From: Erysipelotrichaceae bacterium
GTDB lineage: Bacteria; Bacillota_I; Bacilli_A; RFN20; CAG-826
Assembly (NCBI GenBank): GCA_012518455.1
Contig: JAAYSA010000030.1
Coordinates: 1-39,591 of the forward strand
Length of the DNA: 39,591 nt
Reading direction: 5' to 3'
Position numbers and translations under genes: made by a program. Of the stretch, positions 26,416 through 29,559 are shown piece by piece. The notes beneath the pieces were generated by a model. It ran no database searches. It saw nothing but the letters and a program-made list of their open reading frames with translations, and was not told where the DNA came from. The stretch's first letter is position 1, and each line of letters begins with the position of its first letter.

Positions 26416-27744
26416 ATGTATAATTACGACGTTGTTATCGTCGGTGCAGGAACTGCCGGCACTTATTTTGCGCTTCTACTTGCTAAAAGAGGAGTTAAAG
26501 TTCTTGTTATTGATAAAGATGCAGAAAAAGATCTTGCTAAAAGATTAGATATTTTTCATTTTACTAGCGAATCTTTTGCTGAGTTTAATCTTGAAGAGTC
26601 AAAAGAAGGTGATCCTGAATTTGTCTCAAAGTTTTCTTATTGTTATTCTCGCTCTGCCCTTGATAATTATGAGAAAAAGAATTTTTTAGAAGTTCATGTA
26701 ATGCATTTACCACTTTTTATTAAACGCCTTAGAAACTTGGCTATTAAAGAAGGTGCAAAATTTCAATTTGAGACCACTTTTGCAGACTTAATCTATGATA
26801 AAGATAATAGAATAAGTGGTATTAAAACATCTAAAGATGAAGAAATACGAAGTAGATTAGTTGTTGATGCTTCTGGTATTCCTTCAGTTGTACGAAGAAA
26901 AGTTAGTGATCCATATATTGAAAACTGGCCAATAGGACCACGAGATAAGTTTTATGTTTTCTTAAAATATGTTCTTTTGGATGATCCTAAAATTACAATT
27001 GATCGTTCAATAAGTTGGCCTTACTACAAGGGGTGGATTGCTCCTCAACAAAGTAAGGGTGGAGCAATTGTAGGTGTTGGAGCAAATCTATCAACTGATT
27101 ACGCTAGGAAATGTATGAAAAAATTTGAAGATAGCATTCCTTTACCAAAATATACACTCCAATATGAAGAATGGGGTGCTACACCTTACACTAGACCGCC
27201 ATTTAGTTTTGTTACAGATGGTTTTCTTGTTATAGGTGATGCCGCCTGTTTAACTAAACCAATGAACGGAGAAGGTATTACTAGCGCATGGGTTCAATCA
27301 ACACCTGCAGCAGATGTAGTAGCCTACGCTTTAAAAGATAATAAGTATCCTACAAAAGAAGCACTTTGGAAAATTAATTACCTCTATCAAACTAAGGAAG
27401 GAGCTGAATTTGCAGGATTGAGGGCGCTTTTGGTGGGTGCTGTCGCAATGAGTAAAGAAGATAATGATTATTTATATGCAAATGGAATTATCTTTAAAAG
27501 CGATGATGAAGAAGTAAAAGGTAGTGTTGCAGGTAACTTAATTAAAGGTGTTTTAAAAAGAAAATTTTCTTATTCTGCTTTAAGTAAATTACTGAAAGCA
27601 AGTAACACTGGTACAAAACTTACTATACATTATAAACGCTATCCGTTAACACCTGAAGGTTATTTTAAATGGAAGAAAAAAGCACTCAGTTTATGGGAAA
27701 AAGTTGGTTCAATGGCCGATAACATAACTGATGCAGAGGAATAA
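26416..27744 (+). CDS. NAD(P)/FAD-dependent oxidoreductase, geranylgeranyl-reductase-like
   Basis: Rossmann motif DVVIVGAGTAGTYFALLLAKRGVKVLVIDKD; second FAD motif GFLVIGDAACLTKPMNGEGITSAW; LVVDASGIPSVVRRK. Confidence 0.82.
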   Translation: MYNYDVVIVGAGTAGTYFALLLAKRGVKVLVIDKDAEKDLAKRLDIFHFTSESFAEFNLEESKEGDPEFVSKFSYCYSRSALDNYEKKNFLEVHVMHLPLFIKRLRNLAIKEGAKFQFETTFADLIYDKDNRISGIKTSKDEEIRSRLVVDASGIPSVVRRKVSDPYIENWPIGPRDKFYVFLKYVLLDDPKITIDRSISWPYYKGWIAPQQSKGGAIVGVGANLSTDYARKCMKKFEDSIPLPKYTLQYEEWGATPYTRPPFSFVTDGFLVIGDAACLTKPMNGEGITSAWVQSTPAADVVAYALKDNKYPTKEALWKINYLYQTKEGAEFAGLRALLVGAVAMSKEDNDYLYANGIIFKSDDEEVKGSVAGNLIKGVLKRKFSYSALSKLLKASNTGTKLTIHYKRYPLTPEGYFKWKKKALSLWEKVGSMADNITDAEE

Positions 27745-27781
27745 AAAATGAAAGAAAAAAAGAATTAGAAAACCTGTAAAA

Positions 27782-29209
27782 ATGGTAAACGGGCTGCATT
27801 CTGCAAGGTTTTGGCTAATTATTTGTTTAATGGGGATGGCAGGGCACCTGTGTTGGAACATTGAAAATCAATGGTTTAACACATTCGTTTACGCGAAAAT
27901 TGGCGGAGATGTCAATGTTGTTACTTGGATGGTTATAGTTAGTGCTACCGTAACAACAATTTCAACTTTTATTTTTGGCACACTTAGCGATAGGCTAGGT
28001 AAAAGAAAACGATTTGTTTCAATTGGCTATATTCTTTGGGGTATTGCTACAATAATTTTTGGACTTACAGAATATGCAAGAAGTTCAGGAATTGGCTTTT
28101 TTGTTTCATTAAGTGGATTTCTTGTTGTATTTACAGATGCGCTAATGTCTTTTTTAGGTTCATTAGCATTTGACGCAGGCTTTACAACATGGGTAAATGA
28201 CTATACAGATGAAACAAATCAAGGACAAGTCGGAGCTTCATTTGCTGGTATTCCTGTTTTAGGAACTATTGTTGGTACAGTTTTAGGTGGGATATTAGTT
28301 AATGTTGGAAACGCTACAGCAGGGACTGACCACTATAATCCTGCTCTTGATAACTATCAATTATTATTTTGGTCTATGGGAATTTTTGTAATTTTGGTTG
28401 GAGTGCTTTCAATTTTCTTAATGAAGGATGCCCCAGACATTAAACCAAACAAAGAAGGTTCTTATTTTAAACAACTATTTCAAGTTTTTAATTTTAAAAA
28501 GTTAAAAGGACATAAAGAAAATAAAGAAATGTTTTTAGCAGCTCTAGTTGCATGTTGTTTCTTTATCCCATTTAACTTTTATTTTGTTCATATGGGGAAC
28601 TGGTTAATTTATGATATTGGATTTACTGCAACAAACATGGGTTTAATTGAAGGAATCTCCCTTATATTTTCTGTATTAGTTACGATCCCGTTTGCTAGGT
28701 TAATTAATAAAAATAAAGTTCCTTTAGTAGCACTTATTGCAGTATTAGTGAACGCTATAGGTCTATTTATGCTTTACCTATTTGTTAAAGATCCAAGTAG
28801 CGTTGATAATAGTAGTGCTTTTAATGCGAAAAACATTCCGCTTCTTTTCGCGGTTTTCCTTGTTGGTACGGGTTATGTATTAATTACTCAAGCGACAATG
28901 GTTTGGGTTAGAGGACTGTTCCCAAAAGAAAATCGTGGTCAATTTGAAGGGATTAGATCACTATTCTTTACACTTATTCCAATGTTTATTGGTACATTAA
29001 CTGGTGGATTAATAATTAAATATACACCTCAACCAGTTGAAGTTCACGATCAATTTGGTCATATAATTGATGTTCCGCAAGAAAATCTATTCTTATATTC
29101 TGCGTTAATGGTTTTATTAACGATTATTCCTCTTGTTTTTGCGTGGAGAGAGTTTGATAAAAGAATAAACCTTCAACAACTAGTTGAAGCAACAGAGGAA
29201 GTTAAATAA
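27782..29209 (+). CDS. MFS transporter of GPH/sugar-cation symporter type (start region possibly frameshifted; see findings)
   Basis: About 12 TM segments; MFS loop GTLSDRLGKRKRFVSIGYILWG; LSIFLMKDAP mid-loop. Confidence 0.8.
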   Translation: MVNGLHSARFWLIICLMGMAGHLCWNIENQWFNTFVYAKIGGDVNVVTWMVIVSATVTTISTFIFGTLSDRLGKRKRFVSIGYILWGIATIIFGLTEYARSSGIGFFVSLSGFLVVFTDALMSFLGSLAFDAGFTTWVNDYTDETNQGQVGASFAGIPVLGTIVGTVLGGILVNVGNATAGTDHYNPALDNYQLLFWSMGIFVILVGVLSIFLMKDAPDIKPNKEGSYFKQLFQVFNFKKLKGHKENKEMFLAALVACCFFIPFNFYFVHMGNWLIYDIGFTATNMGLIEGISLIFSVLVTIPFARLINKNKVPLVALIAVLVNAIGLFMLYLFVKDPSSVDNSSAFNAKNIPLLFAVFLVGTGYVLITQATMVWVRGLFPKENRGQFEGIRSLFFTLIPMFIGTLTGGLIIKYTPQPVEVHDQFGHIIDVPQENLFLYSALMVLLTIIPLVFAWREFDKRINLQQLVEATEEVK

Positions 29210-29337: not shown

Positions 29338-29559
29338 ATGGTTAAATGGATGGATAATTTACCAAAGTGGGCAAAGGTAGTACTTGCTCTTCCGTGTTTA
29401 GATGTCGTTTGGGTTATTTATCGTTTGGTTAAAAGTCTTGGAAAGAAACAAACACTTGGCGTCGTTCTAGCGGTTATATTAATAGTCGTTGGTTTACCAT
29501 GGCTTTGGTTGCTTGACATTATCACAATTATCTTACTAGATAAAGTTCTTTGGTTCTAA
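29338..29559 (+). CDS. Small membrane protein (73 aa), uncharacterised
   Basis: AGAAGGAGG SD, extended -10 TGTTATAAT upstream, two hydrophobic segments, followed by a terminator. Confidence 0.7.
   Translation: MVKWMDNLPKWAKVVLALPCLDVVWVIYRLVKSLGKKQTLGVVLAVILIVVGLPWLWLLDIITIILLDKVLWF

Follow-up and report, generated by a model that had tools for sequence, protein, structure and literature searches.

The conserved start codon of an MFS transporter gene, ATG 27748, is out of frame with the rest of its gene in the window (a 39,591-nucleotide stretch of Erysipelotrichaceae bacterium DNA, contig JAAYSA010000030.1). We favor the interpretation, with a probability of about 0.78, that this is a frame change of the conserved start private to this genome, either real or technical, and not a programmed event; the figure includes a consensus error and a relocation of the start as sub-cases. 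Both the place where the four orthologues start and a net change of frame in the window are established, although the latter was read from a single genome, which weighs against the favored interpretation. The reinitiation step discussed below is one that we infer.

Results

The start region can be read directly. On the forward strand, ATG 27748–27750 is followed by AAA GAA AAA AAG AAT and by TAG at 27766–27768, which gives the six-codon frame MKEKKN* (27748–27768; the locus was matched at 27733–27761). An A7 run at 27755–27761 lies inside the codons right after this ATG and is the point of frame loss. The transporter frame is open for 475 aa from an internal ATG at 27782 (27782–29209, forward strand), 34 nt 3′ of the original start. 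This is the first usual start codon in that frame: the nearest upstream stop is TGA 27749–27751, and from there to 27782 the frame has no ATG, GTG or TTG. It does hold one rare start codon 5′ of 27782, ATT 27764–27766, a weak candidate from reading and SD scoring. When the A run is shortened by one base, the two frames fuse to read MKEKRIRKPVKMVNGLHSARFW; two additional A's also bring the frame back. The preliminary description had correctly set out the short frame, the A7 run, the fusion obtained by deleting one A and the transporter ATG lacking an SD.

It had also described the SD at ATG 27748 as good. The sequence GCAGAGGAataaaaa is found immediately 5′ of this ATG, and the SD-like GCAGAGGA at 27733–27740 (forward strand) is identical in the orthologous locus L003. 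An SD (GAGGA) is thus present and conserved, but it is modest in strength: the anti-SD match is 4 bases long (AGGA) with a spacing of 7, and is equalled or bettered by ~ 10% of random sites. SD scoring detected no anti-SD match at ATG 27782, and the 13 nt that separate the leader stop from this codon (27769–27781) contain no SD. An anti-SD match of at least 3 bases precedes the first start of 228 of the 273 long ORFs scored in the window's genome versus ~ 40% of random sites.

The transporter scores 125.8 bits with the MFS_1 profile (PF07690), whose gathering cut-off is 33.4 (E = 2.4e-36), which places it in the MFS, and is ~ 80% identical to a protein of Tenericutes bacterium ADurb.Bin239. 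The gene immediately upstream (26416–27744, forward strand) encodes an FAD-dependent oxidoreductase of the geranylgeranyl-reductase kind, with a Pfam FAD_binding_3 match and with NCBIfam TIGR02032 and NF041080 matches below cut-off; its last codons contain the SD of the transporter. Amino acid identity is 80% for both genes, and fourfold-site identity is 0.325 for the transporter and 0.350 for the FAD gene. By these sequence measures the body of the transporter gene, apart from its start, is intact and under the same degree of constraint as the neighboring gene, so any inactivation would be recent. The locus resembles known pairs of MFS_1 and geranylgeranyl-reductase-like FAD genes in its family match and in the retention of the pair in four relatives; unlike in other such pairs, the first codons of the transporter, and only those, are out of frame. 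A small hydrophobic ORF of 73 aa with no Pfam or NCBIfam match is located 3′ of the transporter at 29338–29559.

The start was compared with those of four syntenic orthologues that share the upstream FAD-reductase gene: L003/L077 (one contig present in two collections), L078, L211 and L005. The FAD gene–transporter pair is kept in all four, and in all four the transporter starts at an ATG just 3′ of the FAD gene with a similar SD and an unbroken frame. The N-termini are MLRNNNNTKPKKTVNGLHPVRFW (L003/L077), MKPTVDKKEKKYYGLGSFRFW (L078), MKENKYHGMKAWKFW (L211) and MNNNEIGNKKQGTVGWKFW (L005), and the corresponding purine-rich SDs are GAGGAataataATG (L003), GGAGGcattATG (L078), GGAGGacaaattATG (L211) and GGAGaaatactATG (L005). 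In each orthologue a whole number of codons separates the ATG from a conserved FW motif. None of the four has an A7 run at this place, and in L003, the closest of them (80% identity), the column of Met27782 is ACA (Thr). Since the orthologous starts are at the SD-linked ATG and the Met27782 column holds Thr, the conserved and ancestral start corresponds to 27748, relative to which the window is frame-shifted. The suggestion in the preliminary description of a frameshift relative to a natural start is supported by this comparison of start codons in homologous loci, and no syntenic orthologue was found to start at the methionine of MVNGLHSARFW, part of the result it had named as refuting a frameshift. 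The leader codons vary strongly among the orthologues; in the alignment they are too variable for the base change that occurred to be read and, judged from the same sequences, for selection on a reading frame there to be revealed. In L209 (G028), after position 2820, the place of the transporter behind the FAD-reductase orthologue (80%) is taken by a frame that we read from its residues as flavodoxin-like.

In more distant homologues the FW motif comes after the first 9 residues, which is also its position in MVNGLHSARFW (e.g., MKNKQSKLLFW in L024). This agreement in length, together with the intact ORF from 27782, is consistent with the tentative alternative that a real indel became fixed and that the gene now uses ATG 27782 (or ATT 27764). 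Against such a relocation, ATG 27782 lacks an SD in a genome whose genes mostly have one, if only a weak one, and a start at this position is seen in no syntenic orthologue.

A pure consensus or assembly error, where the organism itself has an in-frame tract and starts the transporter at ATG 27748 like its relatives, would explain why the orthologues are all in frame and why the gene is intact and constrained, and the window does come from a 61-contig draft. When the proteins of a relative were scanned against the window's genome, two frameshift candidates were detected among 58,457 aligned residues, both away from long A runs, and none was detected in the relative; this orthologue-wide scan is blind to shifts within a few codons of the start, the window's own included. 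The two candidates are at L121:1675–1684 and L149:12818–12856 (contigs C15 and C20). The 140,680 aligned coding bases contain 73 A/T runs of at least 7, and neither candidate coincides with one, so that these ~ 141 kb yielded no further case of a frame lost at an A run. By this measure the assembly shows no sign of being error-prone at homopolymers, with the per-run error rate bounded only to a few per cent, and this argues against a consensus error, which we regard as possible but doubtful. A start-loss scan flagged 7 of 91; on inspection by eye, these were misaligned edges or starts that lay slightly within the aligned part. The arrangement of SD, ATG and mini-ORF was recovered in 5 of 264 genes and in 7 of 718, mostly with weak SD matches. 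As it recurs, this arrangement has no diagnostic value by itself; only the comparison with orthologues has. A search for strain variants of the locus in viral contigs yielded none. Among the causes of the locus as recorded, we assign about half of the probability to a real indel (fixed or segregating), three tenths to a consensus error and the remainder to other causes.

The stretches sampled for these analyses comprised 405 kb of the window's genome, including the window, and 1.09 Mb of the relative. A7 runs are common in the window's genome (31% GC): 278 ORFs (320 kb) contain 233 sense-strand A runs of at least 7, and the first 45 nt hold 23 of these, a density 2.7 times that of the rest of the ORF. 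Synonymous-codon shuffles within genes gave 314 ± 11 runs in total and 28.2 ± 2.6 in the first 45 nt. Because the observed 5′ bias is no greater than that of the shuffles, it is explained by amino acid and codon content, and the A7 run at 27755 is not special. Across the window and the sampled stretches of its genome, runs of A7 or longer are fewer than in the shuffles (233 versus 314 ± 11), which suggests selection against slippage-prone runs.

These counts bear on the proposal in the preliminary description of a phase-variable tract that toggles the transporter on and off. There is a precedent in the short 5′ A6/A7 tract of Listeria inlA, which varies in just this manner at ~ 1e-7 to 1e-8 (PMC2831843). 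Here, the run is only 7 bases long and ordinary for the genome, and the syntenic relatives have no such run, whereas a contingency tract would be expected as a long repeat or as one conserved at the same place in relatives. We found no support for the proposal and consider it improbable. We regard as very improbable the related possibility that A7 switches the transporter on and off, or sets its dosage, at low frequency, with an off state made leaky by reinitiation at ATG 27782.

Slippage of RNA polymerase on the A run, or a ribosomal frameshift there, could also restore the frame during expression. The heptamer A_AAA_AAG is of the classical slippery kind, and slippage on A runs does occur (PMC5009743). 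To enter the transporter frame, the RNA would need to lose one base or gain two, or the ribosome would need to shift by +1. If the ribosome shifts by −1 or transcription inserts one base, the leader instead reads MKEKKELENL*, ending at TAA 27777–27779 in the wrong frame; a programmed −1 frameshift of the dnaX type thus does not reach the transporter, which is in the +1 frame. In transcripts of A runs, insertions (usually of one base) prevail and deletions are rare, and transcripts of E. coli and Buchnera showed no event that restored the frame (PMC5574713). No stimulatory RNA structure was detected around the start, as the local fold was no better than that of shuffled sequences (z = 0.43; an equally good fold in 129 of 200 shuffles), and the relatives have no A run. 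That the usual modes of slippage enter the wrong frame argues against programmed rescue, which we judge highly improbable, and makes the transcriptional slippage suggested earlier unlikely. One added base in the A run or a −1 slip places the leader stop (TAA 27777–27779) 2 nt before ATG 27782, and such a shift would bring terminating ribosomes nearer to the internal start.

The last reading offered for the locus was that MKEKKN is a translated regulatory leader peptide. Its SD and ATG are conserved, and the next start follows 13 nt after its end. In the orthologues, however, this ATG is the transporter's own start: they carry a single fused frame rather than a separate conserved short ORF as expected of a leader-peptide attenuator. 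This contradicts a leader peptide as a conserved element and leaves it hardly credible.

Discussion

A private frame change of the conserved start would account for the locus as follows. The true conserved start of the transporter is ATG 27748, directly 3′ of the FAD-reductase gene and using the SD there. The A run near this start would have undergone a homopolymer indel, private to the genome or to its consensus, that put the ATG out of frame, and the recorded outcome would then be MKEKKN* followed by an open frame without an SD. If the indel is real, ribosomes that end at TAG 27766–27768 may reinitiate at ATG 27782, 13 nt on, and make less transporter. In E. coli, a gap of +14 nt lowers reinitiation by 40–80% without abolishing it (PMC10666635), and by analogy reinitiation at ATG 27782 is possible but inefficient. 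The reinitiated product (MVNGLHSARFW...) would lose only the variable leader and have an N-terminus as long as those of the distant homologues, so that a real indel would probably leave the gene weakened, not dead. Against the notion of a broken start, ATG 27782 may be a newly adopted start, and nothing would then be broken in practice.

The nearest precedent is inlA of Listeria monocytogenes, where the 5′ A run is in frame as A7, leads to a stop after 8 residues as A6 and is stable as the A2GA4 allele (Orsi et al. 2010, PMC2831843). In both genes a short A run is located in the first codons and a one-base difference results in a short peptide before a stop (8 residues in inlA, 6 in the window). 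As in inlA, a conserved start with its SD is followed by a homopolymer and a premature stop within ~ 10 codons, and relatives are in frame at the same place (L003, L078, L211 and L005 here, with the interrupted A2GA4 run on the inlA side). The two differ in that inlA has length polymorphism among strains and measured reversion, whereas the locus here is seen in one genome; in addition, the frame-broken allele is A7 here and A6 in inlA, and here an in-frame ATG follows 34 nt downstream. The origin that we propose, by slippage in a short start-proximal A run, is the same as in inlA. The locus is also reminiscent of the genes frameshifted at poly(A) runs in the AT-rich reduced genomes of Buchnera and Blochmannia (PMC5009743), as its genome too is AT-rich and small and the indel is in an A run of an otherwise intact gene. 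Compared to those cases, its run is shorter, is start-proximal and has an ATG downstream that could serve. The comparisons give no support to a conserved switch, a leader peptide or programmed recoding, and the cause is most likely ordinary.

The case matters mostly for annotation, since an automatic call of the start at 27782 would conceal both the conserved start and the frame change. More generally, start-proximal A runs are weak points of AT-rich genomes, and an in-frame ATG downstream can soften the resulting frameshift.
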